From contig JAKVBU010000006.1 of the NCBI GenBank assembly GCA_022446885.1, positions 124,001 to 188,000 of the forward strand: a stretch of DNA of 64,000 bases, read 5' to 3'. A model generated the notes under the pieces. That model worked only from the letters and a program-made list of their open reading frames with translations. It was not told the origin of the DNA and searched no databases. This document shows, in pieces, positions 1,660 through 38,014 of the stretch. The DNA is from Phycisphaerales bacterium. Lineage in GTDB: Bacteria; Planctomycetota; Phycisphaerae; Phycisphaerales; SM1A02. The position numbers and the translations under genes were made by a program. How positions within the stretch are numbered: position 1 is the stretch's first letter; each line of letters starts with the position of its first letter.

Positions 1660-1693
1660 TCCGGTCCGCTGTTCAGTGTCAGAACGACTCGAT

Positions 1694-19999: not shown

Positions 20000-20572
20000 T
20001 CAGCCCACAGGCCCCACCCGCACCATGCGTCGGTCTTCTGTAGGCATGATTGCAGGGCCTCCACTGGCGGGCCGGAATCCCGTAAGGAGATTGGCTGCAG
20101 CAGGTTGCATCCCCCTGGCAGCCTCGCCCAGATTCAACTCGAATCGGTATCCGGGCAAGCCAAACATGGTCGGCCCTTCGGCTGCTCGAACTGCCTCATC
20201 AGCAAAAACCCAGGTTCCGATCGTCTCGGTGGCATGACGCTCGGGGTCCAGTCGAATGAGTTCGAAGGCGAACTCACCATTGGAGAACACTGGATCCGGC
20301 CCCTGATCACCAAAGAGCAGGGCTGACACATCCACATGGTCACCATAGCCATCGCCATCGGTGTCGCGGGTCGTCGACGACACGATCACAGCCACCCGTG
20401 TCGGCTTGTCGATTCTCATGAGCTGAGTCTGTCGGGGCTCGGGGCGAGGCGTCGGGCGTGCTTGAGCCGCATACCCGTCCGGTCGTCTGGTCGAGCTCTG
20501 GCATCCACCTGCCGCGAGCAGCAGACCTGCACCAGCAACAAGACCGATCAGCGGACGCGATCTTGTGCTCAC
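20000..20572 (-). CDS. Lipoprotein coupled to the giant secretin gene
   Basis: 190 residues. Signal peptide with lipobox LLLAAGGC gives an acylated Cys at about residue 24, followed by a Pro/Arg-rich linker. A D-T-D-G-D-G-Y-G-D loop (about residues 69-77) looks like a dockerin/thrombospondin-type Ca2+ site, then a beta-rich domain (FSNGEFAFELIRLDP, GLPGYRFELNLGEAA). It begins at a GTG overlapping the secretin stop (GTGA), so the two are translated together. An assembly factor (pilotin) role for the secretin would fit position and lipidation, but it lacks sequence similarity that I can recognise to known pilotins. Function is therefore inferred from context only. Confidence 0.78.
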   Translation of the reverse strand: MSTRSRPLIGLVAGAGLLLAAGGCQSSTRRPDGYAAQARPTPRPEPRQTQLMRIDKPTRVAVIVSSTTRDTDGDGYGDHVDVSALLFGDQGPDPVFSNGEFAFELIRLDPERHATETIGTWVFADEAVRAAEGPTMFGLPGYRFELNLGEAARGMQPAAANLLTGFRPASGGPAIMPTEDRRMVRVGPVG

Positions 20573-23500
20573 GGCTCAGGCTCCGTTGAAGTATCACCGG
20601 CCTCCAACGCATCGAGATCACGCACCTTGAGCACGCCGTCTTCACGAATGAACAGGCTCTCACGTTCGAGTTGGCCCGCCTCGATCTGATCCTGCATGGC
20701 CTCAGGCAATGTGAGCCGCTCCACTTCGCCCTCGGTCAGGTCTCGAACGCGATCGAAGTCCGCCGGGCTTCGAACCACATGCGGGGTGAGAACGATCACC
20801 AGTTCATTGCGGACCAGCTGGCTGCTCTCACTCCTGAAGAGAAGCCCCAACAAAGGAATATCGCCCAGGAACGGCACCTTGTCCTGGAACTCTTCATATG
20901 ACTCGTTGATCAGACCCCCGATCACGACGGTCTGGCCATCATGCACCGTGATGGTGGTGTCGGCCGTCCGCTGCAGAATGCGGGGCGACGTGACGCCCAC
21001 CGCGGGTTCATCGGTTTGCTGCAGCAGTTTGGAGAGCGTCGGCTGCACATCGAGTCGCACGAATCCGTCGGGGTTGATCGACGGTGTCACAACCAGACTC
21101 ACGCCGACGTCCTTCTCTTCCAGTGGCACGCTGATGACACCGGTGTCGTAGGTCTGAGCGCCTTGGGCAACGTAAATCAACTCACCCACGTTGATCGTGG
21201 CCTGCTCGTTGTTGGCAGCCATGATTGACGGGTTGCTGAGAATGTGGAGTCGCCCCTGCGATTCCAATGCCTCGAGCACCAGCGAAAAATCACTGGAGCC
21301 CAACGCCAGCGTAGGCATGGCCAATGCCCCCAGAAGTGGCGTGCCGGCATTGGCAACAGGCAGGCGATAGCCCGCTTCCACCGAGGCGCCGCCGATGGGA
21401 CCACCCTCAAACTGAATACCCCAGTTGACGCCGCCCTCGAGCGACACTTCTGCCAGCAACACCTGAATGAGCACCTGAGGTGGATCCACATCCAGAGCAT
21501 CGATCATGTCCTTGACTCGCTCCATGTACCGGGGACTTGCCGACACCAGGACCGAGTTCGACTTCGCATCACCTCGAATCGTCACTTCCCGCTCGAGCAT
21601 TCGTGCAGCCGAACCAAGTTGATCAACACCGAGGGTCTCCACCAATGTGCGCTGTTCCTCTTCGACGAATTCGCCCAGTACGCGGGACACTTCCTCGGCG
21701 GTGGCGTTTCGCAGCTGGTAGACGAGCGTCTCTCGTTCATTGGCTTCCACGGTGTCGAGTGACTGCACAACCTGCTCGACCAGATCGAGATAGGCCGGAG
21801 AGCCAGACACGAGCAGGCTGTTTGTGCGCGTGTCAACCGTGATTGCCAATTGCTGACGGGGATCCGGCACCGCCGTCAATTCCGTGCCACCCAGACCCGG
21901 GCCGAATGTGGCCGAATCCAAGTTCTCAGGTGTCAGTGCCCCGTCGCCGGACACGGGTACGGGTGGAATCACCTGGCCATCGCGGGGCTTAAGCACCAGC
22001 AGGTCCTGCCCTTCGTCGAGACGGAAGAGATCCCGCAGAATGGACCGCATCGCAGTGGCATCCGCATTCGTGAGCGTGAACACCCGAAGGCTCTTCGAGC
22101 CTGTCGACGTCTCATCGAGGTCTCGGATCATGTCTATGAGCATCTGCATCGAGTCGCCGGGAGCACGAATAATGACCGTGTTGGTTCGAATGTCAGGCGT
22201 GAGATTGATCGTCTCCCGCAGAGCAGTCGTGATTGCCATCTCCTCTGCGCCTTCACGCTCGGCAGCTTCACTCACGTATCGCAGAACCGTCGATCGAAGT
22301 TGTCGCGATCGACTTCGCCCGATACTTCGCCCGGCCAATACGTCTTCGATCAGGCTCACAGTCTCGATCGCATTGGCACTGCTGAGAGGAATGTGGCGAA
22401 TCTCCAGCACGTCGGCTGGAGACGTGCCCTCGAGTCGCTCGATGAGATCACGAATCTCTGCGGCATCCCGAGGTGGCGCATTCACCAGAATAGAGTTCAG
22501 CCCACGGTCGGCAGACACCCGCACCGTGCCATCACCACGCGTCCGATTGGCTTCACGAACGTAGAGGTCATCGAGCAGCCGGGCAACCTCGTCTGCCTGA
22601 CCGATCGACAACGGAATGACATCCACAATGCGGCCGTCGTCGCCGGTCTGCTCAGCATCGACAAGCATTCGCAGCAGCTCCTCGATCACGACGAGGTTCT
22701 CGTTGCTGGCCGACACGATCAGACTGTTGATGGAGGTCTCAAACTCGACGGAGACCCTGTCTGTCGGGCTCTGTGCCTCGCCGAGGCTTGCGGCACGCTC
22801 ACGCATGAGTTGCTCTATGCGCGGTGCGAGCCGCTCGGCATTGCCACTGCCACCGACGGGCAGCACGTGCAGCCCGATCGCCGGAGACACGGGCACGGCA
22901 TCGAGCTTGTCTACGAGATCGCGGATGGCGTTCAGATCATCAGGTGCGGCAGACACCAACAGGCTGTCGGTGCGTGTGTCCACCTGTACCAACGGCATCT
23001 GGCGTCGCCGCATGTCAGCGGGCAGATCAGCGTACCGACGTTCCATCACGGTGCGGATGGTCTCCGCCAGCCGCGGGGCTGAACTGGTTCCCGCGTCAAT
23101 CACCTCGACCAGAGCACTGCCGACATATGCAGCACCGTCCAGTCGCTCGATCATCTGTTCGATAACCGTGAAACCACCGGCACTGGCTGCAACGACGAGG
23201 CTGTTAGACACTTCGTCCGCAAGCACGACGGCCCGCTCCATCGCCGCGGCCTCAGGCTCGACGGCTCGCAGCCGATCAACTCGCGCATCCATCATCTGCT
23301 GTACGAGTGACGAGACCCGTGTGGCACTGGCCGACTCCAGGGCAATGGTGCGGATCTCCTGGAATTCGGGGGCCTCATCAGTGTCGAGTGTCACAAGCAG
23401 CGACTCGACGATGGTGAAGACCTTCTCGCTGGAACTCACGACAAGCGTGTTGGTTCTTGCATCGGCTTGAATAACGGCCGCATCCTCATCGTCCAACGCC

Positions 23501-26500
23501 CCGCTTCGAAGCTGACCGGCGATGAGCCTGTCAAGCATGTTCGCCAACTGCGATGCCGTAGCATGGGCCACCGGGTACATGCGTACCGATGAAGCCGGCG
23601 ATGCCCCTTCCACATCGAGCATGCGGATAAGTTCCGACACCACCTGGATGTTGGCAGCCGATCCGACCACGACCAGCGAGTCAAGGGCCGGCTCGGGCAC
23701 GAGGGCAAGACGATGCATGGGTTGGAAGATCTCCGCATCGACTGAGTCGCCGCCGGCAGCCACACGCAAGCGGCCGACCTGATGCTGCATCGGACCGGCA
23801 TTGGGCTGGTCCGTTGCCCCTTCCACGAGTACGCGGTGCAGCGTGTCGGCCATGTCGGACGGGTCGGCGTGGACAAGCGGCACGACCTGAACCTCCAACC
23901 AACCCGAAGCCATGTCACTGTCGAGCCGCTCTACAAGCACCTCAACTGTTGCGACGGCGTCTTCACGGCCGGCCACGATGACCGTATTCGTTCGCTCGTC
24001 AACCGACATGGCGATGTCATCGAGCAGTGCCGAGCCCACAGCGCCGCCGGGACGTGCCGGAATGTCGGTGCCCGGCAGCATCGAAAGACCGTCACTCTGA
24101 TCAAAGACATCCTGCACGATTCGACGGAAATCTTCGGCGGCGATGTTCTCTAGCGGCATGACGCGGATCACGGCAGCGCCCGAGACCGGCAGTGAGTCCA
24201 GCAGATCGACCAATGCGTCGATCGCCAGGACATTTGCGGTTGTCGAGGTCACGACCAGTGCATTCTGGATCTCGTGGGGCACGATTCGAATGGGCTGAGA
24301 GAGATCCAGTTCGACGAGCCCGCGGCCGACTTCCTGGTGCCGCAGATCCAGGCGCCGTACCTGCTCCTCAATGGCCCGTGCCAGCTCGGTGCCGACCTGT
24401 TGATCTGATGGATCCAGCAGATCTTCTAGGACATCGGCCATGTCCTCGGCTCGTGTGTGCTGCAGTTCGATGATCTGCATTGTCGCTGAGGCGCCGACGG
24501 GGGCCTCATCGACGGCCCGGAGAATGTCCACGACCGTGTCGGTGTCTGCCGGGTTGGACAGCACCATGACGGCATTGCGACCGTCTAGATGCGTCACCCG
24601 TACAGGCTCGTTCACCAGTCGAGACATCGAGTTATTTCGAGGTGGCCGGTGCAGGCCCAGCGACTCGATTACACGGATGGCCTCCGGAGGTGCGATGTGC
24701 TGCAGTTCGATCACGGTCACACCGTGCCCTGATGCAGGCATCATGCCATCGAGTTGAGATGCGGTGGATCGGATCTCCTGGGCCAATGTTCCACTCGTGG
24801 CAACGACCAGTGAGTTGGTCATGGCATCGTGCTCAATAGTGAGAGGCACTCGAAGCTGGTCGGCGCGTTCTGCAAACGTCCCACGCAACGTATCGGCGAC
24901 ACGAGCCACCGGTGAGTCTTCCAGCGTGATCACATGCACCGTGACATCCACACTCGTGTTGGGCTGATCGAGAGATTGAACGATGGTCTCGATGCGCTCG
25001 AGTGTCCGGCCAGTGGCTGCAACCACCACCGAGTTGGTGACGGGCTCGGCCGATGCGCTGACCCACTCCTCGCTCTGCACGAGCATGGTGGGCACCTCTG
25101 CCTCACGATCGCCATTGCCACTATTGGATTGCCGCGGGCGTGGGCGGCGGCCACGCTGGGTCACTTCACGGCTGAACGCCTCGTTGATCGCTCGAGCCAC
25201 CGATGCCGCCTCGGCATGCTGCAGAGGAAGTACTCGAACCTGCAGCGATGCGTCGTAGGCCTCATTGTCGAGTTCGGCGATGAGCGCCTCGATGCCCTCC
25301 CACTCACTTTCCTCAGCACTGACCACAAGCGAGTTGGTCGACGGATCGGCCACGATGCTCACGTTCATCTTGGATGGCGTGTCTGCCTCCAGAGCATAGG
25401 GCCCGTAGAACACCGTCAGCGCCTGCCGCACCTTGTCCGCCTCGGCGTGCTGCAGTGCGAGGAACTTCGTCTCGCGCGTGCTGACTGGTGGCTGGTCGAG
25501 CTTCGCGATGAGTTTCTGCAGCTGCTCAAACTGGGCCGGTGTCGCGGCGATGATCAGTTGATTGGCGTTGCGATCTGCATCAATCTCCGGGCGAGGCCGA
25601 GGCATGGAATAGGTGATCTGCTCCAGGCTCCAACGCACATCTGAAGCAATGGCGTGCTCGAGCGACACCAGGTGGTATTCAACTTCTGCAACTGTGGGCA
25701 CGGAGTCGAGGTCCGAGATCATCGACTCGATAATCGGAATGGACTCGGCGCTTGCCGTCACCACAAGGCTGTTGGATCGTTCATCGGCGACGATTCTTGC
25801 GCGAATCTCGACCGGGTCCGCGCCTTCCTCCAGAGTGATGACCGTGTTGGATGCCGAGCCGTCGCCTCGGAGCCCGAGCGAGTCATTGAGCACACGCACG
25901 ACATCTCGAGCGCGAGCCTCGTCCAGCGGGAAGGTTCGAACGATGCTGCGGTCACCGACCGCCCAAGTGTCGAGCACGTCCAGCAACTCGCCGATCTCTT
26001 CATGCTGCGCGGCATTGCCGGCCACGATCAATACGCGGTGCTTTTCGTCGAGACGTACGACAGGGGCTGTCTCATCCCGGGCCTCCCACCATGCGCGCGA
26101 ACCGCCGCCATAGAGATCGCGAACCATGCCCTGCACCGTCTCCATAGAGGTGCCTGCGACGTGGTACGTCTTGACGGTTCGCTCGGCGCCTTCGGGTGAT
26201 GCGGCGTCTATGACCGCCACCACCTGCTCGACGATGTCGAACGTCTCCCCATGGCCGGTCACGACCAGTGCATTTAGGCGCAGATCAGGGAAGACCGCCA
26301 ACCGGCCTGGCAATTCACCCCCGCGAGATCTCCCCATCCACCCACCGAAGACCTGGCTTCCATATGCCAGTTGCATCACCATGTTCTGCACGGTGTTGGC
26401 GACTTCAGCAGCCTTGGCGTGCTCCAGTGGGTAGGCCTGAATGCGAAACTGTTCGTGGCTGGCGGGGCTGTCGAGGCGGGAGGCGAGCTCCTTGACGGCC

Positions 26501-29500
26501 TCGAAGTCATCATCGGCCGCCGCAACGAGCAAGGTACGTGATCCCTGATCGCCGATCACCGTCACGGCACGCTTGCCACCACTGATTCTCGCACGGTCAT
26601 CATGCAGTTTCTGAATGGCCTGGGCCACTAGGCCGGCATCTGCCCTCTCCAGCGAGATGGTGCGGATGTCAAACTGTTCATCACGGGATCGATCGAGTTG
26701 TTCAATGAGCGACTGGATATGTGTACGCATTGCCTCGTCGGCCCGCACAAGCAGAAGCCCGCTGGCGTCATCGGGCACGACCGTCACCGTTGATGCCGAT
26801 GCCGGATCAGACGCCAGAAGTGCCTGCTGCACCAGTCGGGCAATCTGTGAAGGACGGGCACTCGTGAGTTCGATCGCCTCCAGTGGCGGCAGGTCCACGG
26901 CCGTGGAGACATCCAGTTGCTCGAGCAACTGCTCCACTTCAGCCAACTGAGCCTCGCCCCCTGTCACCAGCAGTGTGTTGGTGCGTGCGTCGGCGATGAC
27001 CTCTGGAAGTGTGGCGGCAATGCCAGTCGCGCGACGAGCGTTGTAGCGGGCCCGCATGAGCCGCTGCACAGTGCGCCCCAGATCCTCGACACCTGCGTGC
27101 GTCACATCGAACAGCCGCAAGGCAGGCTGCCCCGTGATGGGCGACTTGTCGACAAGCGACACCAGCTGTTCAAGCACCGGAACAGACTCTGGTGGCCCGG
27201 ACACAATGAGGGCCCCGGTTCGAGCATCGCCACTGACCGAGACGTCCTCAGGCCGGAAACTCGCGTCGACGGGCTCACCGCCCAGCGCTTCCACCACAAG
27301 TCGCTGCACCTGACCGGGTGTACCGGCCTGGGCTCGTAGCATTTCCCGCACCTGTTGGGCGGCCACATTGGCCTGCGTCTGCTGCAGCGGAATCACCTTC
27401 ACGATGCGAGTCTGAGCCGTCGGACCCGAGGGCGCTACCGCCCGCAAGACCTCTGTCACCGTCTGAAAATCGGCATCGGAACAGGTGATGAAGATGGCGT
27501 CGCCCGAGGGGTCGGGCAAAATCGACACCCGAGAGGCCACATCACCGCGTCGCCCGCCAGGCGTCGTCATGGTTCGAAGCGTCTGGCTGAGCAGCGTTGT
27601 CAGCCGACCGGCGTCATGGGTTCCCTTGAGGTCGATTCGACGAAGCGTGCCGGGAGCGGCGGGCATCTGCCGCATCAGTTGATCCAGCATCGCACGGGCT
27701 CGCCGCACCGCTCGGTCTCCACCCAGCAGCACAAGACTGTTCGTTTCGGGATCAACGGCGATGGACACCGATGGAGCCTCGTCCCCTTGATCCTGCATGC
27801 CTCCAAAGGCGACAGCTGCGAACCAACTGGGCACTGTCATAGGAAGCGAGGATGTCTGCTCGGGCGCAGCCTCTCTCTCCAACAGATCTTCGAGATCGAC
27901 GATCTCGACCATCGACCCCTCATGTTGCTGCAGTAGACGCCGCAAGGTTGCGGCAAGCTCAGCCGCATCAATTCGGGATCCATCGATGGGCACTACGTCC
28001 AGCCGGCGCCCCGCTGACAAGGCCGCCTGATCGATCTCACCAACCACGGCACGAACACGCGCCAGTTGAGCCTCGTCACCTCGAACGAGCAAGGTGTTGC
28101 TGGCCCGGTCAACCTGCACCTGCGGCGGCGAAAGAGATGACTCATCGGCGAGCAAGGGCTGCAGTGTTCGCGACAATTCTGTTGCATCTGCATGCCGCAC
28201 CGGCACCACATGCAGGGCCCGTGCAGTGCGAGCCGACTGATCTGCAACATCAAGTTGAGTCACAAGCGATTCGGCGATGGGAAGCACGCCGGGGCGAGCA
28301 ACAATGACGACCGCATTCAGACGGGGATCGGCTGCAACCTTCACCGAGTCTCGAACCTCTGGCAGCGCGACACGTCGTCGAGCGGCCTCGATTCGCTGAG
28401 CGAGCGTGTAGGTTTCCGAGCCCATCAATTGCTCAACTACGGGCGCGACCCGCTCTGCTCGTGCATGTTCCAGATAAACGGTGCGCACCTGACTGGCCTC
28501 GGCAGACACGCCCTCGTCCAGAGATTGAATGAGCGACTGCACCTGCGCGAGTTCCCCGACCGGGCCGGTCAGCACGACGGCGTTGCCAGAAGGCTCGGCC
28601 TGCACGACAACCTGACGAGCGGCCGGATTGAATCGACCCTTGGCAGCCATCGAGGCTTCAACAGTCATGGCGACAGTTGTTGCGTCGGCCCGCTCAAGTT
28701 GAACGACTCGAATCTCCACGGCGCCGGTGTCAGACGCAGGGCGATCGAGTTCTTTCAGCAGGGCCGTCGCCAAAGGTTGCAGGTCAACGGGGGTGTCGAT
28801 CATCAGTCGGCCTGCGGTTGGATCGGCCACGACATTGGGCAGCGGAACAAGCGTGCCAGCCGATCGCGCCTGCCGCAGCGACAGAGGCCAGCGAGCCTGA
28901 TCTCGCAACATCGCCGTGAGCACAGGCGCCAGCGCGGCAGGGTCACCATGCGTGACGTCATGCGCCTTCAGCGCCGTCTCGATCGGAAGTGGCGTGGCGG
29001 CATCACGCTCCTTGAGCAACTCCATGGCTGCCCTGACGTCAGCCGGTCGGCCGGAGATCAGCACGCTCTGGCTACGAGTGTCGGGCAGGATCTCAAGCCC
29101 GTGCACCTGCCCACCCAGTGCGCCTGCGTCGATCAGCCGTCGTACGGTTGTCACCAACTGACTGGGTTCCGACCGCAGTGGCTCGAACTCGGCCAACTCC
29201 ACCGGCACGTCGAGCAGGCGAACAGCCTTCTCGATGTCATCAAAGTGCTCGCCCTGCGCCTCTATGACCAGCATCTGCAGAGCGTCGAGCGGATGAAACT
29301 TGGGGGGCTCGAACCCGGGCTCGTCAGCACCATCGAGCAAGAGAGGCAGGGACGTGCCCAATTGGGACACGATCTCGCTGGGGCGAACAGATGTCAGCGC
29401 AATGCGGCGAGTCTCAGTCGTCCCCGGCTGAGCGGCATGCAGTTTCACCACCAGCTCATGCAAGCGCCGCACCGCTGTAACGGGACCGGTGAGCACAACG

Positions 29501-30915
29501 GTTCCGTCTTCGGCGACATCAACACTCGCCCCATCCGTCTCCTGGGCATCAAGGGCGCGAGCCTGGTCCAGCAATCGTGCCGCTTGGCCAGCGGGCAACT
29601 GCACCACCCGAACGTCGATTTCCTCGCGGGATCGCACGTCAAGTGCGGGGAGCACGGCCTTTATGGCCTCAACCTCTGTGGCTGGCCCCGCCACGATCAG
29701 GCTACGGCCGTCCGGGCCGGGGGCCATTCGAACCCGACTTCGCCTCACCGGCGGCAGAATCTGCTCGAGCGCTCGCAGCGTTGCCGTTGCATGGGCGTCG
29801 GAGAGAGCGATGTGCTCGATGACCGGCTCGCCAACAGGCGTAGATGAACCTTCAAGAGCCGCCAACGCGTCCACCAACTGTTGTACTCGACCTGAGGCGC
29901 CGGCCAGACCAATCGAGGTCTGTTCCGGCATCGGCACCAGAACCGGCCGCTCCGACTCGGGCATGCTGGCGATGATCGGGGCCAGCCGCTTGGCAGCGAC
30001 GTCTACAGTCAGAAGGCTCAGCCCTACCACACGCAGATCCTGATCGGCGCTGCTGGAGGGTCGGTCAAGCAGGGCGATGATCTCTCGCATCCGATCAAGC
30101 CCGGCATGCGCGCCCTTGGCGATGATCGAGTTGGTCCGAGCGTCGGCGCTGAATGAAACGCCCTGCAACGAAACTTCCTCGACCTTCTGCAACTTGCCCT
30201 TCTTGTCCGGCACGTACTTCTCAACCTTGACCGACATGAGATCGGTCAGCGGCTTGATGAGCGCGTCGGCCTGCACATGTTCCAGCGGGAAGACCTCGAC
30301 CTCGCCCTCGGGTGACTGTTTGTCGATTTCGTCGAGCAGGCCCAATAGCCGCCGGGCCTTGCCCGCCATCTCGGTGAGCACGACTGCGTTCTGGCCAGGC
30401 AGCGCGATGAGTTGCCCGTACTCGCCGACCATGGGAGACAGTCGCTCGACCATGGCCTCGGCCGTGGCGGTGCGCAGTGGGCGCATCACGGTCACGAGTT
30501 GATCGTCGGTGATCTCGAGGGGAACCTCGTTCATGAAGGTGGGCAGGTTTGCCCGCTGCATGTTCTCGAGCTTCTCGAGTCGCAGCACGTCACCATCGAC
30601 TCGAACCGTGACACCCTTCGTCTGCAAGATCGTGTTGAGAATGCGCAGCCCGTCGGACAGGTCGTATGTCTCTGGTGACTTGAAGGTGATCGTGCCTTGG
30701 GGGATCTTGGTGTCATGCACCATGGGCATGTCGGCCGCGCGGGCAACTACGTCGAGCACCGTTTCGATGTCGGCGCCACCGAATGCGAACCTCAATTCAA
30801 CAGGCGGGGCAGGCGCGCGGGTTTCCCCCGAAACAGACTCGTCTGCCATGGCCCCCACCTGCCAACTGCACAAGACAGAGGAAACGAACAGGACCGCGCG
30901 CAATCGACCAGCCAT
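20569..30915 (-). CDS. gspD: Giant T2SS secretin with about 36 N1-like modules
   Basis: About 3,448 residues. Outer-membrane secretin of a type II secretion system. ATG 30915 is preferred over GTG 30921 because GGAG sits 9 bases upstream; the signal peptide ends AMA. An N0/STN domain (about residues 40-117: ELRFAFGGADIETVLDVVAR) is followed to about residue 3145 by N1-type modules averaging 84 residues. Their repeated signature is V-x-P-L-x-H-A-x-A...A-x-x-R-T-N-S-L-V-V...(I/L)-x-x-L-D. The secretin domain (about 3146-3385) has SNPSIMAANNEQATINVGE, GVSLVVTPSINPDG and VPFLGDIPLLGLLFRSE. A 65-residue acidic tail ends it. GspD is normally about 650-750 residues with three N1 domains. Divergence between modules argues against an assembly repeat. 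The gene ends the gspF-M run. Confidence 0.93.
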   Translation of the reverse strand: MAGRLRAVLFVSSVLCSWQVGAMADESVSGETRAPAPPVELRFAFGGADIETVLDVVARAADMPMVHDTKIPQGTITFKSPETYDLSDGLRILNTILQTKGVTVRVDGDVLRLEKLENMQRANLPTFMNEVPLEITDDQLVTVMRPLRTATAEAMVERLSPMVGEYGQLIALPGQNAVVLTEMAGKARRLLGLLDEIDKQSPEGEVEVFPLEHVQADALIKPLTDLMSVKVEKYVPDKKGKLQKVEEVSLQGVSFSADARTNSIIAKGAHAGLDRMREIIALLDRPSSSADQDLRVVGLSLLTVDVAAKRLAPIIASMPESERPVLVPMPEQTSIGLAGASGRVQQLVDALAALEGSSTPVGEPVIEHIALSDAHATATLRALEQILPPVRRSRVRMAPGPDGRSLIVAGPATEVEAIKAVLPALDVRSREEIDVRVVQLPAGQAARLLDQARALDAQETDGASVDVAEDGTVVLTGPVTAVRRLHELVVKLHAAQPGTTETRRIALTSVRPSEIVSQLGTSLPLLLDGADEPGFEPPKFHPLDALQMLVIEAQGEHFDDIEKAVRLLDVPVELAEFEPLRSEPSQLVTTVRRLIDAGALGGQVHGLEILPDTRSQSVLISGRPADVRAAMELLKERDAATPLPIETALKAHDVTHGDPAALAPVLTAMLRDQARWPLSLRQARSAGTLVPLPNVVADPTAGRLMIDTPVDLQPLATALLKELDRPASDTGAVEIRVVQLERADATTVAMTVEASMAAKGRFNPAARQVVVQAEPSGNAVVLTGPVGELAQVQSLIQSLDEGVSAEASQVRTVYLEHARAERVAPVVEQLMGSETYTLAQRIEAARRRVALPEVRDSVKVAADPRLNAVVIVARPGVLPIAESLVTQLDVADQSARTARALHVVPVRHADATELSRTLQPLLADESSLSPPQVQVDRASNTLLVRGDEAQLARVRAVVGEIDQAALSAGRRLDVVPIDGSRIDAAELAATLRRLLQQHEGSMVEIVDLEDLLEREAAPEQTSSLPMTVPSWFAAVAFGGMQDQGDEAPSVSIAVDPETNSLVLLGGDRAVRRARAMLDQLMRQMPAAPGTLRRIDLKGTHDAGRLTTLLSQTLRTMTTPGGRRGDVASRVSILPDPSGDAIFITCSDADFQTVTEVLRAVAPSGPTAQTRIVKVIPLQQTQANVAAQQVREMLRAQAGTPGQVQRLVVEALGGEPVDASFRPEDVSVSGDARTGALIVSGPPESVPVLEQLVSLVDKSPITGQPALRLFDVTHAGVEDLGRTVQRLMRARYNARRATGIAATLPEVIADARTNTLLVTGGEAQLAEVEQLLEQLDVSTAVDLPPLEAIELTSARPSQIARLVQQALLASDPASASTVTVVPDDASGLLLVRADEAMRTHIQSLIEQLDRSRDEQFDIRTISLERADAGLVAQAIQKLHDDRARISGGKRAVTVIGDQGSRTLLVAAADDDFEAVKELASRLDSPASHEQFRIQAYPLEHAKAAEVANTVQNMVMQLAYGSQVFGGWMGRSRGGELPGRLAVFPDLRLNALVVTGHGETFDIVEQVVAVIDAASPEGAERTVKTYHVAGTSMETVQGMVRDLYGGGSRAWWEARDETAPVVRLDEKHRVLIVAGNAAQHEEIGELLDVLDTWAVGDRSIVRTFPLDEARARDVVRVLNDSLGLRGDGSASNTVITLEEGADPVEIRARIVADERSNSLVVTASAESIPIIESMISDLDSVPTVAEVEYHLVSLEHAIASDVRWSLEQITYSMPRPRPEIDADRNANQLIIAATPAQFEQLQKLIAKLDQPPVSTRETKFLALQHAEADKVRQALTVFYGPYALEADTPSKMNVSIVADPSTNSLVVSAEESEWEGIEALIAELDNEAYDASLQVRVLPLQHAEAASVARAINEAFSREVTQRGRRPRPRQSNSGNGDREAEVPTMLVQSEEWVSASAEPVTNSVVVAATGRTLERIETIVQSLDQPNTSVDVTVHVITLEDSPVARVADTLRGTFAERADQLRVPLTIEHDAMTNSLVVATSGTLAQEIRSTASQLDGMMPASGHGVTVIELQHIAPPEAIRVIESLGLHRPPRNNSMSRLVNEPVRVTHLDGRNAVMVLSNPADTDTVVDILRAVDEAPVGASATMQIIELQHTRAEDMADVLEDLLDPSDQQVGTELARAIEEQVRRLDLRHQEVGRGLVELDLSQPIRIVPHEIQNALVVTSTTANVLAIDALVDLLDSLPVSGAAVIRVMPLENIAAEDFRRIVQDVFDQSDGLSMLPGTDIPARPGGAVGSALLDDIAMSVDERTNTVIVAGREDAVATVEVLVERLDSDMASGWLEVQVVPLVHADPSDMADTLHRVLVEGATDQPNAGPMQHQVGRLRVAAGGDSVDAEIFQPMHRLALVPEPALDSLVVVGSAANIQVVSELIRMLDVEGASPASSVRMYPVAHATASQLANMLDRLIAGQLRSGALDDEDAAVIQADARTNTLVVSSSEKVFTIVESLLVTLDTDEAPEFQEIRTIALESASATRVSSLVQQMMDARVDRLRAVEPEAAAMERAVVLADEVSNSLVVAASAGGFTVIEQMIERLDGAAYVGSALVEVIDAGTSSAPRLAETIRTVMERRYADLPADMRRRQMPLVQVDTRTDSLLVSAAPDDLNAIRDLVDKLDAVPVSPAIGLHVLPVGGSGNAERLAPRIEQLMRERAASLGEAQSPTDRVSVEFETSINSLIVSASNENLVVIEELLRMLVDAEQTGDDGRIVDVIPLSIGQADEVARLLDDLYVREANRTRGDGTVRVSADRGLNSILVNAPPRDAAEIRDLIERLEGTSPADVLEIRHIPLSSANAIETVSLIEDVLAGRSIGRSRSRQLRSTVLRYVSEAAEREGAEEMAITTALRETINLTPDIRTNTVIIRAPGDSMQMLIDMIRDLDETSTGSKSLRVFTLTNADATAMRSILRDLFRLDEGQDLLVLKPRDGQVIPPVPVSGDGALTPENLDSATFGPGLGGTELTAVPDPRQQLAITVDTRTNSLLVSGSPAYLDLVEQVVQSLDTVEANERETLVYQLRNATAEEVSRVLGEFVEEEQRTLVETLGVDQLGSAARMLEREVTIRGDAKSNSVLVSASPRYMERVKDMIDALDVDPPQVLIQVLLAEVSLEGGVNWGIQFEGGPIGGASVEAGYRLPVANAGTPLLGALAMPTLALGSSDFSLVLEALESQGRLHILSNPSIMAANNEQATINVGELIYVAQGAQTYDTGVISVPLEEKDVGVSLVVTPSINPDGFVRLDVQPTLSKLLQQTDEPAVGVTSPRILQRTADTTITVHDGQTVVIGGLINESYEEFQDKVPFLGDIPLLGLLFRSESSQLVRNELVIVLTPHVVRSPADFDRVRDLTEGEVERLTLPEAMQDQIEAGQLERESLFIREDGVLKVRDLDALEAGDTSTEPEP
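21487..30570 (-). repeat. Array of about 36 tandem N1-type secretin modules
   Basis: Protein-level repeats within gspD, counted by eye from the recurring N-S-L-V-V strand and the closing helix ending in L-D. Mean spacing is about 84 codons. Several modules (about numbers 12, 18, 23, 26-28, 34 and 35) carry loops of 20-50 extra residues between strands. Early modules are the most divergent. The boundaries and the exact number need a profile search. Confidence 0.8.
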
Positions 30916-30979: not shown

Positions 30980-31912
30980 TCAGGGGCGCTTGAGAAGCGA
31001 TCCCGCCGGAATCGTCCACCGGGCCCCATCAGCTGCGAAAGTGGCCTCGTCGATGCCGTCGGCATCTGGCGTTACAGCTTCCAGCGTCATCCCCTGATGG
31101 GAATCTCCCGGAACAAGGCGTTTCCGCTTGCCGCGAGGTGACTGCAGCAGCACCTCAGCCTCACCACGAACGAGGCCGACATGCACCACCTGCCATGGAT
31201 CCGCGATGGGCCGAGGTGGCTTGTCCTGAGCAGGAGGTGGCTTGGGCGGCGTTGGTGGCGCTGGCGGCGCAAAGGGGTTGGGCAGGGCAAGGGCGACCCG
31301 CTGGGCGGGAGGCGGTTTGAATGTGGCCGCTTCCTGCGGCCCCGCTCCGGGAATGAACAGTGCTTGAAGTTGCAATGAAACTTCAACCTGTGCTCCGCCA
31401 TCGCGAGCCGTAAGCCGGAGCTTGGTGATGCGATGCGGCCACGACTCGGCCTGAATCGACTCCACCAGCAACCCGACTTGTGACCACGTACCCCGGGCTG
31501 CAACTGTCGCCCCCACCAACATGAAGTCGGGCTCCTTGCCGAGGCTTCGCTGGGATCCCTTGAACTCTCTTCGACCGGGCGACTCAACTTCGACAGGCGG
31601 GCTCGTGCCCACGCGAACATCCGTGACTGCTGCCGCTTCAGCAAGCGCGGCCAGCCGTGATCGCAATGCATGGTCAACAGCCTCGGTCGTGGAACCAAGC
31701 GTCCTCGCCGCGATGGACTCGATGCGATCATTGACACCCGCGGCGCGGTCGATGTCCACTCGCCGCCGCTCAAGAGATGCATTCATCGAGTCGATGCGCG
31801 ACTGAATTGCGGCAGCTGGCGACGTCACCCATGCAGAGAAGGCCCACCAGAGCAACAGGCACAACAAGAGCGAGCCAACCCCCCACGCGATGATGAGCAT
31901 GCGGGAGTTCAC
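30980..31912 (-). CDS. gspM: GspM/PilO-like protein with GspC/PilP-like C-terminal domain
   Basis: 310 residues. One N-terminal membrane helix (about 5-27), a coiled coil (about 35-65) and a PilO/GspM-like periplasmic domain (about 90-190) containing the LVESIQAESWPHRITKLRL helix-strand. After a Pro-rich linker with N-P-F-A-P-P (about 212-240) comes a small beta domain (about 240-310): VVHVGLVRGEAEVLLQSPRG and a G-D-S-H-Q-G turn, like the HR domain of GspC or PilP. In known systems GspM and GspC are separate proteins, and the GspC HR domain docks on secretin N0. The start is GTG overlapping the gspL stop. The GspM part is fairly secure; the fusion reading is an inference. Confidence 0.8.
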   Translation of the reverse strand: MNSRMLIIAWGVGSLLLCLLLWWAFSAWVTSPAAAIQSRIDSMNASLERRRVDIDRAAGVNDRIESIAARTLGSTTEAVDHALRSRLAALAEAAAVTDVRVGTSPPVEVESPGRREFKGSQRSLGKEPDFMLVGATVAARGTWSQVGLLVESIQAESWPHRITKLRLTARDGGAQVEVSLQLQALFIPGAGPQEAATFKPPPAQRVALALPNPFAPPAPPTPPKPPPAQDKPPRPIADPWQVVHVGLVRGEAEVLLQSPRGKRKRLVPGDSHQGMTLEAVTPDADGIDEATFAADGARWTIPAGSLLKRP

Positions 31913-33396
31913 GAACCGTCCTCGCCAGGTTCTGACGTGCGCTCCATTCGTAGCGTCATGTCATTGGGTAGTCGTCTCCCGTCGGTCGCGTCGGCGCCAC
32001 TCGTGGTCACAGTCCATGGCTCGGTGTCAGCGAGCCGACCTCGAAGCGCTTCGGCCTGGTCGCGCGTGGCCGCTTCGGCCTCGATGATCATGCGCTGCGA
32101 CCATGGCAACGACCACTTGTCAGGAATCGTCCCTGATGGCGCTTCCACATCGTCCATGTCCAGGCTCATGACCACGTCGTCGAGCAACACTTCTCCGGGC
32201 AGCCCCACCGCCTGCAGCACTTGCGTGAGATCACCAGCGACATCCGGACCAGTGGCCAGCCAGAGATCGAGATGGCCGATGCGAAACGTCTCGCGGTTGT
32301 ATCGCCACCAAGGCGTGTCGAGACGATCACGAGCCATCTTCACACGCTCGTACTGTTGCTGGAGCACCTCGGCACGGCGCGTGCCCCATGCCCAGATTCC
32401 ACCAAGCACGACGATCAACGCCAGAACCGCCAGCAGCAGGGTCTGTCGCAATCGTGCAGCCCGATCCGGAGACTCGCGCGGATGCAGCAAGTCGATCCAG
32501 GCCCGCCCGGTCTGTTCCGCAACAAGCAGGCCTGCCAGTGAACGCACTTCCTGCAGATCGTTCCCGGCAGCGTCGATCCCGTCGGGGACGTCTACGATCT
32601 TCGCCGTAGCCCCGGTGATTGCCCCGACCGGCTCGGCAAGTTTGCGTGTGAGGGATTCAGGGCCACTCAGATAGACGGCTGAAGGCTCCGGGCCATCGCC
32701 CTCAGCCCGCCATGCCAACCACGTTCGCCGAACCTCCAGCGTGACGGCGTCAGTGAACTGCTCTGCATCATCAACGGAGACCGTGGCAGATCGAGCTCGG
32801 CGAGGATTGCCGTTGTCAACCCACAACACCTCCACATGACTGCCGGAGATGTCCACGACGACAATCGACCCAGACCGCGGAACGAGTGCCTCGGCCCCGA
32901 ACAGCCGAAGCGTGACTGCTCTGGCAGGCCGCCCGGCGAGTTTCATTCGTCGCCTCACCCGCTCAAGGTCGGCTTCCGGCATGGCTGCTGAGAGCACCTC
33001 TGCGGTCTCATCCTCGTCATGCACCGGAAGTGAATCGATGACCGCATGCTCGGGGTCGATCGGAAGATCACGCGATGCCGCGAGCCGCGCCATGGCCGGC
33101 AGGTCTTCGCGGGCGGCGCCGGGAAGTTCCTGTCGCTTGAGCACCACATCTTCACGCGGCACTGAAACGATGCACGGACACCTGGGGATGCCGGCATCGT
33201 CGAGCACCTGCGCCATCCATTGAGCTTCTGCTTCGAGCCCGTCGAGGTTTTCCGGCCGCGGCTGTACGACGGTGGCGTCGAGTCTCAAAGCGCCGCCGTC
33301 AAGACGGGTTGCGGCAACAGCTCGCAATCGGCGCGCCGTCAGTTCGACGGCGACCCGCTGTCTGGGAGGCGTGCCACGTCCAAGGTGCTTGAGCAC
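31909..33396 (-). CDS. gspL: T2SS inner-membrane platform protein GspL (PilM-PilN type)
   Basis: 495 residues. Residues about 1-310 are the actin-like cytoplasmic domain (VAVELTARRLRAVAATR, IVSVPREDVV, IVVVDISGSHVEVLWV), the equivalent of PilM. One membrane helix follows at about 333-352 (LLLAVLALIVVLGGIWAWG), then a periplasmic ferredoxin-like PilN/GspL domain. In T2SS this protein links the GspE ATPase to GspM. Its start is GTG 33396, 19 bases after gspK. Residue similarity to any one family member looks low, but the domain order and gene position fit well. Confidence 0.85.
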   Translation of the reverse strand: MLKHLGRGTPPRQRVAVELTARRLRAVAATRLDGGALRLDATVVQPRPENLDGLEAEAQWMAQVLDDAGIPRCPCIVSVPREDVVLKRQELPGAAREDLPAMARLAASRDLPIDPEHAVIDSLPVHDEDETAEVLSAAMPEADLERVRRRMKLAGRPARAVTLRLFGAEALVPRSGSIVVVDISGSHVEVLWVDNGNPRRARSATVSVDDAEQFTDAVTLEVRRTWLAWRAEGDGPEPSAVYLSGPESLTRKLAEPVGAITGATAKIVDVPDGIDAAGNDLQEVRSLAGLLVAEQTGRAWIDLLHPRESPDRAARLRQTLLLAVLALIVVLGGIWAWGTRRAEVLQQQYERVKMARDRLDTPWWRYNRETFRIGHLDLWLATGPDVAGDLTQVLQAVGLPGEVLLDDVVMSLDMDDVEAPSGTIPDKWSLPWSQRMIIEAEAATRDQAEALRGRLADTEPWTVTTSGADATDGRRLPNDMTLRMERTSEPGEDGS

Positions 33397-33415: not shown

Positions 33416-34771
33416 TCACCGCCATCTTCCGAGGCGAGGATCGTTGACGGCCCTCGTGGATGGTGGCTGTGACGGTTCGGGGGAGTTCCCAATGTCGATC
33501 GCGATAGGCATTGCCGGCTCCGGCGGGTCCACCCGAATGAGCGCAGGCACCTGGGGCTCTGTCGCGGTGTCGCTGAGGGCGTCGTCAGGGGTACGGACTG
33601 ACGAGTCGTCCTCATCGTCTTCATGTTCGTCTTCTTCATCTGCCTCGCTCAGAGTTGGAAACACCAGACCCGTCAGTGCGCCAGGCGCCGCCAGGTGCTC
33701 CCGCAGCAGGGCGATACGGGGTGTCTGTTCAGAAACATCAAAGACCACCTCGTACCAATCCGCACTCTGCAGCATGTCGTGATCGTCGTCCTCACGTACC
33801 TCACCGATCCCCAACATGCATCGCCATGTGAACGAACCCACCGTGATTCGACTCAGGACGGTGGCCTCCAACGACCTGTCCAGCCCGCCCTCCGTCCAGA
33901 GCCACGACATCAGCGACAGGCTGTCATCTGAAAGCGTGTCCCGCACCGCCACGAGGTGCATCGCCTTGTCCGGGTCTATCCCATCCAACGTCGCCAACAC
34001 CTCGGCAGAGGCCGAGGCCACATCGATCCGCCCGGCCTGAAAGCCCTCGGCAGGGGCCGCATGACGCAGGATCGCACCCCACACTTCGGGCGCAGGTGAG
34101 GCCGCCGCTACACGAGCCGCGAACGACTCCGCATCACCCTCACCAAGACCCTCAAGCACCTCGATTGATCGCTCATCAAGCAGACCTGCCAGGGCCTGCC
34201 GAGCGTCTTCGCTCCAAGGCTGTGCCACGATTTGACCGGGGGCCTGAACTGGCCCATGTGCCAGCACCGTCAGCGGGACCGTGCTTGACGCGTCCAGCCC
34301 AGCGGCATCCAGCACGGCAGAGAGATCCTGAAATCGTCCGCCTGGGGCTGCCCGTCGCTGCTCGATCAACGCCTGGGCTGTTGCCTGGTCGATCCCCTCC
34401 AGTTGTGCCAGTTCATCGACGCTTGCATGGTTGGCATCCAACAGCGCCGACTCCGACATCGGTTCTGCCACACCTTCATCAACTGCCAGCAATCGAGCGA
34501 CAATACGACGCTCACCCTCGACCCACAGCACGGTTTCCTGCGGCAGATCTGCACGCTGGCCCAATGCAAGTTCTTCTCGCTGATCCGCAAGTTGAGCCCC
34601 CAGCACTCGCAGCGCAGACTCCAATCGCAGGAGTCGCGTTGTTCGCATCAGATCCAAATCACTTGCGGACACCGTCACCGAAGCCACCTGCACAAGCGCG
34701 GCCGCCAACCAGATCGAGGCCGCGCCGATCACGGCGACTGACGCCAGCACGATGCCTCGGTGGGACCTCAT
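33416..34771 (-). CDS. gspK: Minor pseudopilin GspK
   Basis: 451 residues. A short basic leader MRSHRG is followed by the hydrophobic helix IVLASVAVIGAASIWLAAAL. Position +5 is not Glu, as is usual for GspK, which caps the pseudopilus tip. Two helix-hairpin-helix-like segments are visible (ANHASVDELAQLEGIDQATA and IDVASASAEVLATLDGIDP), typical of the GspK alpha domain. The tail (about 380-451) is acidic, Ser/Pro-rich and probably disordered. Its ATG overlaps the gspJ stop (ATGA). Confidence 0.9.
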   Translation of the reverse strand: MRSHRGIVLASVAVIGAASIWLAAALVQVASVTVSASDLDLMRTTRLLRLESALRVLGAQLADQREELALGQRADLPQETVLWVEGERRIVARLLAVDEGVAEPMSESALLDANHASVDELAQLEGIDQATAQALIEQRRAAPGGRFQDLSAVLDAAGLDASSTVPLTVLAHGPVQAPGQIVAQPWSEDARQALAGLLDERSIEVLEGLGEGDAESFAARVAAASPAPEVWGAILRHAAPAEGFQAGRIDVASASAEVLATLDGIDPDKAMHLVAVRDTLSDDSLSLMSWLWTEGGLDRSLEATVLSRITVGSFTWRCMLGIGEVREDDDHDMLQSADWYEVVFDVSEQTPRIALLREHLAAPGALTGLVFPTLSEADEEDEHEDDEDDSSVRTPDDALSDTATEPQVPALIRVDPPEPAMPIAIDIGNSPEPSQPPSTRAVNDPRLGRWR

Positions 34772-35337
34772 GTGCTTCGCTCTGGATCTTCCGGAGCAGC
34801 CTCCGGCATCATCAGCACGCGGCGGCGATCTGGTGGTGCGTCCTCAGGCGGGTCTGCCATGAGCCACGCATCGATCACGACCAGTGAAGGCAGCGCGCCA
34901 ACAGCACCAGAGTCGAACTTGTCGTGCCAAGCGCCATTGTGTCGAGCTTGAATCCGCAACGTTGCCGACCCGGGCACGGTGAGGCCTTCACCTTCGAGCC
35001 CCTTGAACACGATGCCCACGCCGTCGTCTTGCAACGAGAGCACATGGCGACCGGGCACCTGTGTCTCGATACCAGGGCGATCAATCGCTGCCATGAGTCG
35101 TATGGAGTCTTCAGATGTAACCAGACCGGGCAGGTGGCCGCCTCGAACGGCAGCTGTTGCAAACGCGCTGTCCATGCGATCGAGGGCCAGGTCAAGCGAG
35201 CGAAGGCTATCGGTTCGTTCTTCAATTCGAGTTCGATCCCTGGCCAGGCCAAGCAGCAGCGTTGCCGCCACCGCGAGTACCGCCGTGAGCAACGCCAGTG
35301 CAATGAGCACTTCGATCAGTGTCATGCCCCGTTTCAC
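34768..35337 (-). CDS. gspJ: Minor pseudopilin GspJ
   Basis: 189 residues. Type III signal KRG-MTLIEVLIALALL with Glu at +5, the site for prepilin peptidase cleavage and N-methylation. The globular part has DSLRSLDLALDRMDSAFA then beta-strands to a short Pro/Asp-rich end. GspJ forms the pseudopilus tip with GspI and GspK. The start and stop both overlap the neighbours by four bases. Confidence 0.88.
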   Translation of the reverse strand: MKRGMTLIEVLIALALLTAVLAVAATLLLGLARDRTRIEERTDSLRSLDLALDRMDSAFATAAVRGGHLPGLVTSEDSIRLMAAIDRPGIETQVPGRHVLSLQDDGVGIVFKGLEGEGLTVPGSATLRIQARHNGAWHDKFDSGAVGALPSLVVIDAWLMADPPEDAPPDRRRVLMMPEAAPEDPERST

Positions 35338-35738
35338 TGCATACGCTCCTGCAGGCGAAGGTCGGAGGGGACGAGGGCCCGAACGGTGGCGTGCAGATCG
35401 GGATCATCAATCTCCCTGACCGTCACCTCAAGCAGCACCAGACCCGGCTCCGCAGAAGGGCTGGTGGATGTTTCCAGTTCAACCAAGTCCGCGTCGCCCG
35501 CATACACGCTCATCTCAAGCAGTTCGGGAAGTGACTCGCTTCGCAGATCGCCTATACCGACCAGACCACCACCAGCCATGCGAACAATGGCGACGGCCGC
35601 ATCGTTACATCGCCTTCTTCTGTCAGCTCGATCCAACGCCTGCTCGGCATCGTCCATGGCCTGCAGGGTGAACGCCCCCGCTCCAACCAAGATCACGAGT
35701 GCGACCAGCACCTCAAGCAATAGAGCGCCACGCCTCAT
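35334..35738 (-). CDS. gspI: Minor pseudopilin GspI
   Basis: 134 residues. Short leader MRRG, then ALLLEVLVALVILVGAGAF with Glu at +5. The small globular domain includes DDAEQALDRADRRRRCNDAA and a C-terminal beta segment. The length and place between gspH and gspJ match GspI, the tip-nucleating pseudopilin. Overlaps of four bases on both sides indicate coupled translation. Confidence 0.88.
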   Translation of the reverse strand: MRRGALLLEVLVALVILVGAGAFTLQAMDDAEQALDRADRRRRCNDAAVAIVRMAGGGLVGIGDLRSESLPELLEMSVYAGDADLVELETSTSPSAEPGLVLLEVTVREIDDPDLHATVRALVPSDLRLQERMQ

Positions 35739-36322
35739 GGTGAGCCTGTCGGCGTGTTGGAGCCTGTCGGCGTTGTAGAACCTGAAGTCGCGGCCGGGAT
35801 TGGCACAGTTGGTTCCACCTCTGCGTCCATCAGAGGCAGAGGATCAACCACGAGCACCCGCCCTGTGAGGGCATCCATCTGCAACGCCCCTCGCCTCCCG
35901 CCTTCTCCCTCAAAGACGAGCGGGGCTGGCATGCGAGCTTGGCCATCGGGCAGCACAACCGCCAGCAACAGCGGCAACTGGGCTTCCCCAACATCGACAC
36001 CCGCCAGTGGAGACTGCACCAGCGCCGGCGCCTCGGTTTCGCCAAGCCAAGGACGCACAGTCAGCATGGCGTCATCTTCCAATTGAATCAACACTGGCTG
36101 ACCACGATCAACGGCGGCGACACGGGCCCGCTCCAACACGCTGCGCAATCGAGTGCTTTCGGACGCCCACGTGGACTCGTCGTTGATCGCATCGATCGAA
36201 GGCAACACGATCGCCCCGATCGACAGCAGCAGCACGACCACCAGCAGTAGTTCCAGCAGCGACAGGCCGCGGCGATCAGCTCGCGCTGGTCGTGGGCTCT
36301 CCGCTGCCGGGGAAACTGTCAT
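35735..36322 (-). CDS. gspH: Minor pseudopilin GspH
   Basis: 195 residues from ATG 36322. A 16-residue leader before RRG-LSLLELLLVVVLLL (Glu at +5). The next helix and strands (STWASESTRLRSVLERARVA) are GspH-like. The Ser/Thr/Pro-Gly tail (TPTGSNTPTGSP) is encoded by a short tandem DNA repeat. The gene overlaps the end of gspG by 47 bases; no later in-frame start codon exists before the conserved helix, so the overlap is real unless the start is non-canonical. Confidence 0.85.
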   Translation of the reverse strand: MTVSPAAESPRPARADRRGLSLLELLLVVVLLLSIGAIVLPSIDAINDESTWASESTRLRSVLERARVAAVDRGQPVLIQLEDDAMLTVRPWLGETEAPALVQSPLAGVDVGEAQLPLLLAVVLPDGQARMPAPLVFEGEGGRRGALQMDALTGRVLVVDPLPLMDAEVEPTVPIPAATSGSTTPTGSNTPTGSP

Positions 36323-36773
36323 CGGCTTCAATCTCACCGTCAGCATTCTTGCGGCGATCATGGTTCGTCACGTCGTCCTCGGTGTTCTCTTCACCATCAG
36401 GTCCCAGCGATACGAGGTCGTAGACCGATTCATCCACCAGTTCGCCCGGATATCGATAGACGATCGGGCGATTCCAGTTGTCGCTCTCGATTGCTGAGAT
36501 GTAGATGCCCTTCCAGCGTGCCTGGTCGGCCTCTTCCTCGATGAGCTCCTTGTTCCAGAGCACGGCGATGCCCTCATCCTCCGAGGGATAGCGTTTCATG
36601 TCGATCCGGAAACGCTCCATGGCTGAGTCGATCTGGTCGAACTGGGCCCGTTGGATGTCGGCTTCGGCCTGATCGCCAACAGACAGGAAGCTCACCGTCA
36701 CGATGGCCCCCAGTGCGAGCAGAATCGAGATCACGATGAGCAGTTCGAACAGGGTGAAGGCTCGTCGATGCAT
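36276..36773 (-). CDS. gspG: Major pseudopilin GspG
   Basis: 165 residues. Leader MHRRA then FTLFELLIVISILLALGA with Glu at +5. The -1 residue is Ala rather than the usual Gly. Downstream motifs of GspG are present: MKRYPSEDEGIAVL, DNWNRPIVYRYPG and the calcium-site loop SLGPDGEENTEDD. GspG polymerises into the pseudopilus that pushes substrates through the secretin. A C-terminal extension of about 25 acidic residues overlaps the start of gspH. Confidence 0.92.
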   Translation of the reverse strand: MHRRAFTLFELLIVISILLALGAIVTVSFLSVGDQAEADIQRAQFDQIDSAMERFRIDMKRYPSEDEGIAVLWNKELIEEEADQARWKGIYISAIESDNWNRPIVYRYPGELVDESVYDLVSLGPDGEENTEDDVTNHDRRKNADGEIEADDSFPGSGEPTTSAS

Positions 36774-36835: not shown

Positions 36836-38014
36836 CTACTGCAAGCCCGAACTCATGCGCATCATCGGCAAGACGAGGGCCGCGAAGATGAAAATGACCA
36901 TTGCCGCAACCATCACCAGCAGGGCCGGCTCCAGCAGCCTCAACATGATCTCCAACTTGCGATCCACCCGCTTCCGCGTGACCTGAGCCACCTCGGTCAG
37001 AACGTCAGGAAGCCGATTTGACGTCTCCGCGACGTCGATCATCTCCACAACATCTTCGGGCACCTGCGACGTCTCGCCCAGTGACTGCCCCAATCGTTGG
37101 CCGCCCTGCACAGCTGTCCGAGCAGACTCGAGCGCGGCTGCCAGATGCGGGTGCCCCGCTGTCTCGCGGCTGATCTCCAGCGCCCGCAGCAGCCCAACCC
37201 CGTTGGACAACAGCGATCCGAGAATGCCCGCAGATCTGCTCAACGCCACATCATCGAGCAACGCCCCCACCAGTGGAATCCGCAACACCTGTATCTGCAG
37301 CCATCGCCGCGGGGCCGGCCGCCGCCAGGCAACCACCCAGCTCACGGCACAACCCACAAACAGCAGCAGCAGAACCGGCCAGAACCTCACGGCAGCATCA
37401 GACAAGCCGAGCAGGATGTCGGTAGCCAATGGCACCTCGATTCGCTCGAAGAACGGTTTGAACTTGGGCACAAATGCGATCAGGGCATAGAGCACCGCTC
37501 CGACACCGGTGAGCACCAGAATTGCTGGGTAGATCAGGCTCCCGATAACCCGCCCCCGCATGGCCGCCTGCGCTTCGAGCAATTCGCTCAAGCGCGACAG
37601 TACTTCTTCGAGGAAGCCTCCCTGCTCGCCGGCGCGGACCATCGCCGTGTGCACATCGCCGAATGCCGACGGGTGTGCCGCCATGGCATCGGCCAATGAT
37701 GAGCCATCGGCAACCGTGTCTGCGATCTCAGACCAGATGCGAGCCATGCCCGCATGGGCCTTGCCCCGCCCGAGCAGTCGCAGTGCCCGAAGCAAGGGCA
37801 CACCAGCACGAATGAGGTCGCTCAGCTGCCTCAGTGACCCTGCCAGCACACCTGTGGGCGTACGGGCAGTCTTGGAGATCGACTCTCGAATGCGAACCGG
37901 TGCCAGTTCGAGTCGATCGAGCTCCGCCAGGACGACTTCACGAGTTGGGCCCTGCAGCACGCCCTTTACCAGTGTGCCATCTCGCGATCTCGCCTCGTAG
38001 GCCCAGGTGGGCAT
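36836..38014 (-). CDS. gspF: T2SS inner-membrane protein GspF
   Basis: 392 residues. Polytopic platform protein with two repeated T2SSF cytoplasmic domains: LSDLIRAGVPLLRALRLLG in the first and ILGSLLSNGVGLLRALEIS in the second. Each is followed by membrane helices (VLTGVGAVLYALIAFVP; LLVMVAAMVIFIFAALVLP). The N-terminus MPTWAYEARSRDGTLVKG is the usual GspF/PilC start. It would contact the GspE ATPase, which is not found next to it. It starts 15 bases after acs ends. Confidence 0.94.
   Translation of the reverse strand: MPTWAYEARSRDGTLVKGVLQGPTREVVLAELDRLELAPVRIRESISKTARTPTGVLAGSLRQLSDLIRAGVPLLRALRLLGRGKAHAGMARIWSEIADTVADGSSLADAMAAHPSAFGDVHTAMVRAGEQGGFLEEVLSRLSELLEAQAAMRGRVIGSLIYPAILVLTGVGAVLYALIAFVPKFKPFFERIEVPLATDILLGLSDAAVRFWPVLLLLFVGCAVSWVVAWRRPAPRRWLQIQVLRIPLVGALLDDVALSRSAGILGSLLSNGVGLLRALEISRETAGHPHLAAALESARTAVQGGQRLGQSLGETSQVPEDVVEMIDVAETSNRLPDVLTEVAQVTRKRVDRKLEIMLRLLEPALLVMVAAMVIFIFAALVLPMMRMSSGLQ

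Follow-up and report, generated by a model that had tools for sequence, protein, structure and literature searches.

We find that the window, the whole 64,000-nucleotide stretch of Phycisphaerales (Planctomycetota) DNA analyzed here, encodes a secretin of 3,448 residues with an N0 domain, 36 N1-type modules and a single pore, and its neighboring genes, gspF to gspM, identify it as GspD, the outer-membrane component of a type II secretion system (T2SS). The gene is one intact frame on the minus strand, running from 30915 to its stop at 20569. The longest version of the frame opens at GTG 30921 and would give 3,450 residues; residues are counted from this codon throughout. Judged by its sequence context, ATG 30915 (3,448 residues) is the better start, since a good Shine-Dalgarno sequence, AAGGAG, precedes it at the proper distance (AAGGAGAG). 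A preliminary description, which named no strand, had proposed a frame of about 3,448 codons with a signal peptide, N0, about 36 N1-type modules and one pore, and the N0, modules and pore were confirmed by Pfam, by a profile of the protein's own modules and by AlphaFold2. The present analysis goes beyond it in four respects: the protein is the GspD of a T2SS operon, such giants are common in Phycisphaerales, their pores form one clade beside ordinary GspDs, and their modules are spaced as fixedly as those of ordinary secretins.

Pfam matched Secretin_N in 32 stretches (E 2.7e-281), well beyond a mere handful of N1 domains, together with one Secretin domain (PF00263, residues 3218-3384, E 1.6e-49) and, below the family cut-off, the GspD N0 domain (PF21305, residues 47-114, E 2.4e-5). 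The N0 profile also matches every giant with an intact start and six of six ordinary GspDs, and the N0 of the window's protein superposes on that of ETEC GspD (4jtm) with a Z of 11.2 and an rmsd of 2.7 over 80 residues. The pore end matches GspD structures at Z 12-14. TIGR02517 scored 956 bits against a cut-off of 351, a value inflated by the repeats, with the best stretch covering positions 126-599 of 600. A profile bootstrapped from the giant's own modules found 32 of them and left four module-sized gaps (137-205, 296-365, 438-505 and 506-581). In the AlphaFold2 model of residues 38-904, N0 is followed by ten modules of E-H-E-E-H (β-α-β-β-α) order, and as the gaps show this order too, they are predicted to be N1 folds as well, which brings the total to 36 modules plus N0. 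The N1 fold was present in all 17 modules that were modeled.

Table 1. The giant gspD gene, its parts and its operon in the window (residues counted from GTG 30921).
Feature	Residues	Position	Strand	Basis or remark
Giant GspD-type secretin gene		20569..30915	-	3,448 aa from ATG 30915 (3,450 from GTG 30921), 371 kDa
Putative signal peptide (MAGRLRAVLFVSSVLCSWQVGAMA / DES)		30844..30915	-	reading of sequence
N0 domain	41-115	30577..30801	-	PF21305 E 2.4e-5; 4jtm structural match
First N1 module, N1 equivalent of ordinary GspD	137-205	30307..30513	-	N1 of 6/6 ordinary GspDs best here
Modules 2 to 35, expanded N2-like array	206-3062	21736..30306	-	profiles, models, comparisons
Module 36, likely N3 equivalent of ordinary GspD	3063-3150	21472..21735	-	N3 best or near-best in most of six
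Secretin pore domain	3151-3400	20722..21471	-	PF00263 E 1.6e-49; GspD structures Z 12-14
Modules 1-9	137-205, 206-290, 296-365, 366-437, 438-505, 506-581, 582-648, 649-734, 735-810			
Modules 10-18	811-900, 901-971, 972-1090, 1091-1171, 1172-1265, 1266-1344, 1345-1416, 1417-1491, 1492-1580			
Modules 19-27	1581-1658, 1659-1746, 1747-1815, 1816-1892, 1893-1992, 1993-2065, 2066-2145, 2146-2249, 2250-2341			
Modules 28-36	2342-2443, 2444-2520, 2521-2602, 2603-2681, 2682-2763, 2764-2838, 2839-2942, 2943-3062, 3063-3150			
Lipoprotein gene, sharing GTGA with the end of the giant gene		20000..20572	-	invariant lipobox Cys
gspM-like with Pro-rich linker; HR-like domain at the C-terminus is a candidate to bind N0		30980..31912	-	HR assignment weak
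gspL (PilM-like)		31909..33396	-	one weak profile match; GspL profile of giant operons
gspK		33416..34771	-	T2SSK and helix-hairpin-helix
gspJ, minor pseudopilin		34768..35337	-	profile matches
gspI-like minor pseudopilin		35334..35738	-	prepilin-type N-terminus in sequence
gspH-like minor pseudopilin		35735..36361	-	profile match and sequence reading
gspG-like major pseudopilin		36276..36773	-	sequence reading; conserved in giant operons
gspF		36836..38014	-	TIGR02120 E 1.6e-82 (278 bits, cut-off 424); PF00482 above cut-off

Within the flanking sequence retrieved, about 30 giants share the order gspF-G-H-I-J-K-L-M, giant gspD, lipoprotein gene. Scored on our profiles, the GspL and GspM of E. 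coli are weak matches. The giant's operon holds no gspE; at least seven full-length genes for T2SSE-family ATPases lie elsewhere in the window's genome, and in the ordinary sister operons such a gene adjoins gspF. The lipoprotein beside the giant, for which a Pfam search returned no convincing family, is a candidate pilotin or outer-membrane partner. In known systems, N0 is bound by the HR domains of GspC and GspB (PMC9239104). By analogy, the HR-like C-terminus of GspM is a candidate N0-binding partner; its best Pfam match was a weak one to T2SSB (E 0.0033, in 4 of 25), and neither E. coli GspC and GspB nor any PDB sequence matched it. A 606-residue protein of no known family is encoded downstream of the lipoprotein (18077-19897, minus strand); its gene accompanies the giant in the nearest relatives only.

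We searched 61 genomes, of which one is the window's own and 60 are relatives: 39 carry giants with 25-82 Secretin_N matches and 22 have 1-11 matches, with none in between. The longest giant frame reaches 5,086 codons. It is scarcely credible that the gene is an assembly error, a decayed gene or a non-coding artefact. The relatives are mostly metagenome bins and a few have a broken giant gene in adjacent frames (L019, L020), but unbroken giants of 4,634-5,073 codons occur in one- or two-contig genomes (G011, G034, G042 and G046), and the protein of a congener (G001) is 74% identical over its full length with 36 of 36 modules in register. Silent sites are saturated (pS 0.74) and amino-acid changes far rarer (pN 0.17), a pattern found in every module; purifying selection is strong and acts on each of them. 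As for the broken genes, that of L019 (G051) lies in three overlapping frames and that of L020 (G030) is interrupted by one stop, through sequencing error or decay in either case. One further genome (G060) apparently has two giants, L017 and L018, one with at least 35 modules and cut by a contig end, the other complete at 4,234 residues with N0.

Module number ranges from 23 to about 56 in the relatives. G002 is without module 6 and modules 14-16, and G036 without modules 21-23; gain and loss concern whole modules. A strong GspL ortholog (E <1e-50) is present in exactly the 39 giant-bearing genomes and in none of the 22 others, a split sharpened in part by the profile itself, which derives from giant-bearing operons; but among giant-less genomes of that family, most lack any GspL match. 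Giant GspDs are common within Phycisphaerales. Carriers found in a GTDB scan are mostly labeled as Phycisphaerales or Phycisphaerae bins, some only as Planctomycetota and a few otherwise, and giants lying wholly within the retrieved sequence mostly have 2,400-4,600 residues. Among the matches listed from 244 sampled genomes of the phylum, frames of more than 3,000 codons with these modules were confined to the window's order; at most 23 candidates were scored per genome, so giants outside the order can escape. In family f1, protein length rises with genome size (Spearman 0.60, n=18, p 0.009, uncorrected for kinship), a trend absent over all families.

Our search of the open-licence literature found no description of giant or long secretins, or of a planctomycete GspD of this kind. 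With GspD, PulD and OutD the giant has in common the signal peptide, N0, N1-type domains, secretin pore, gspF-M operon and fold. Those proteins, however, have three N1-type domains in about 650 residues, compared with 36 in 3,448, and the giant falls outside the three N1-type domains and 600-900 residues that are typical of GspD, though not strictly defining. In E. coli, gspD stands before gspE, whereas the giant gene follows gspM. A closer likeness is found in the syntenic operons of families f5 and f6 (L137-L142), which have weaker GspL matches and ordinary Phycisphaerales GspDs of 741-873 residues, with N0, three N1-type modules and a pore. These share the giant's operon order, gspF-G-H-I-J-K-L-M and then D, but have GspM and the HR-like part as separate genes, which are fused in giant operons. 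Their pores are the nearest in a pore-domain tree, where 35 of 35 giants form one clade (99/93) adjoining them.

From six ordinary GspDs we took the three N1-type domains and scored them with profiles of positions 1-10 and 30-36 of the giants. N1 fell at position 1 six times out of six, by a wide margin; of the positions tested, N2 did best at inner ones (34, 10 and 9) and N3 mostly at position 36 (best or near-best in most of the six). E. coli GspD (BLASTP E 2e-41; 29% identity over the last 394 aligned columns) aligns by its N0-N1-N2 to residues 47-286 and by its N2/N3-pore to residues 3027-3403. Both ends of the giant, which would contact the inner-membrane platform and the pore, are thus old and kept, which implies that the middle multiplied: the protein looks like an ordinary GspD with an expanded N2-like stretch between its two conserved ends, and the expansion probably began from N2. 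In a module matrix, mean pair identity within the window's protein is 21%, an old divergence, and some relatives have younger repeats of 4-5-module and 2-module blocks; self-BLAST for internal block duplications gave no usable match.

In another planctomycete family (f30), a GspD of 1,326 residues with about nine modules and a pore (L155) looks intermediate; GspL and a fused GspM/HR-like gene adjoin it as in giant operons, but it has far fewer modules. Other long proteins were met in the search. L151 (8771-16843, minus strand, in the one-contig genome G189 of another planctomycete family) encodes a pore-less giant of 2,690 residues, in which a signal-like N-terminus and an N0-like domain accompany about 28 matches to N1-type modules; no secretin pore is present. 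L152 (G200) has a similar protein, 1,515 residues long and with about nine such matches. L154 (G034) and L156 (G058) represent a further secretin class that recurs in the order; its members have about 1,530-1,700 residues and no detectable N1 modules of the giant type.

Two other secretin classes were considered and rejected for the giant. For the type III secretins SctC and YscC, the neighbors are gspF-M with no type III genes, and the TIGR02516 score comes from shared domains. For the type IV pilus secretin PilQ, the neighbors are gsp-type and not pil, and Pfam gave no AMIN match up to E 10; to our knowledge, AMIN domains are not present in every PilQ. The PilQ of Thermus thermophilus nonetheless resembles the giant in having a channel lengthened by added rings, which stack to span a wide periplasm. 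It differs in its 757 residues, in having about six times fewer ring domains and in serving the type IV pilus and DNA uptake, in contrast to the giant's gsp operon. Its six stacked rings, N0-N5, have been termed exceptionally long and span most of that periplasm (PMC5745081).

Do the modules form rings or a string? Between the last helix of one module and the first strand of the next, the spacer has a median of 13 residues with both quartiles at 13 (n=2,888 junctions; 5-95% range 12-16, 1% over 20). The intramodular loop, by contrast, takes anything from 10 to 49 residues (5-95%; maximum 137). Ring-to-ring spacers of ordinary GspDs are 10-16 residues. So constant a spacer speaks for modules set on one another in a fixed way, like stacked rings. 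Taken as a single body, the modeled N0-N1-N2 superposes on PulD from the assembled complex of Klebsiella (6hcg; Z 13.9, 220 residues, rmsd 4.6), a match to an assembled secretin that concerns this end only. Single-chain AlphaFold models have pTM values of 0.34 and 0.27, with the inter-module arrangement poorly fixed. Direct-coupling analysis of 3,304 modules recovered the intramodular fold (strand pairs 1-3 and 2-3 and the packing of the helices) and yielded no pair assignable to ring contacts without coordinates. The sequence data favor stacked rings over a loose string, and the long tunnel suggested in the preliminary description is the reading that best suits the giant's anatomy.

We therefore hold it reasonably probable that the protein is a T2SS GspD whose stacked rings form one continuous tunnel of about 90-110 nm, with the array as a modular spacer. 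Twelve to fifteen copies would assemble, as in ordinary GspD (a 15-mer of the window's protein would have a mass of about 5.6 MDa), and their pores would fuse into a single gate in the outer membrane. Each module and its copies in neighboring subunits would make one ring, and the rings would stack; a secretin ring rises about 2.5-3 nm, and 36 such rings give the estimated length. At the far end, the N0 ring would dock on an inner-membrane platform of GspC/GspM type, and a pseudopilus of GspG and minor pseudopilins would push folded proteins through the tunnel. Evolution could set the length by adding or removing whole modules, their number presumably matched to the inter-membrane distance at the machine's site. 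The fullest form of this proposal is somewhat less than an even prospect: N0 and 36 coaxial rings (up to about 56 in relatives) over about 100-150 nm, with length set by the modules and a pseudopilus acting across the whole, would be the longest known closed protein tunnel.

The array could instead be an elastic tether, in which the pore, N0 and perhaps a few terminal modules form rings and the inner modules are flexible beads with no closed tunnel, linking the pore to the inner-membrane platform so that the machine works over a variable distance. Such a string would suit the fast divergence of several inner modules, some of which fall below profile detection, the possible loss of whole module blocks, the loose inter-module geometry of the models and the flexible joints between the rings of Thermus PilQ (PMC5745081). 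A loose tether should, however, permit its spacers to vary, and they hardly depart from 13 residues over the 2,888 junctions, as do the ring-to-ring spacers of ordinary GspD from their own narrow range; with purifying selection on every module besides, we regard it as unlikely. Less likely still, and in our judgment improbable, is an array that forms rings without running straight, folded back or layered into a collar, sheath or helix that makes the channel wide and massive, not long. A straight 100 nm tube would misfit a periplasm of normal depth, which the ordinary secretins and flagellar genes of the lineage suggest, unless that periplasm is locally widened. Yet so uniform a spacer implies that the same step recurs from each module to the next, the geometry of N0-N1-N2 is normal and axial, and we know of no secretin that folds back.

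A stacked tunnel raises the matter of periplasm depth, which the preliminary description had met with deep planctomycete periplasmic spaces. Periplasm can indeed be greatly enlarged in planctomycetes, for example Planctopirus (PMC5394234), and our literature search found no published value of its width for Phycisphaerae. Ordinary secretins of 665 and 999 residues are encoded in the window's genome, and full-length genes for the flagellar P-ring protein FlgI in most giant-bearing relatives, the window's own genome having only a partial FlgI-like match. Their presence alongside giants makes a uniformly ~100 nm-deep periplasm unlikely and weakens a space deep throughout the cell as the explanation; local widening, or a tube running along the envelope, is more likely. 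Crateriform structures were rejected as an explanation, none having been observed in cultured Phycisphaerae (PMC7783415; PMC5394234). Besides true FlgI, nearly all relatives searched have a protein of about 600-700 residues with a partial FlgI-like domain (G000:C98:53221-53973 in one genome).

Known secretins belong to well-studied machines with two to six rings. Within one protein family and otherwise similar operons, the giants and their relatives provide a natural series of 3, 9, 23, 36 and about 56 modules. This series makes it testable what sets the length of a two-membrane machine, how N domains stack, whether a pseudopilus can act over 100 nm and how enzymes are secreted across the unusual periplasm of planctomycetes. 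Giant GspDs may also serve as a genetic ruler with which to make protein tubes of a desired length, and in the cell they may form a protein tunnel of many times the length of any on record.
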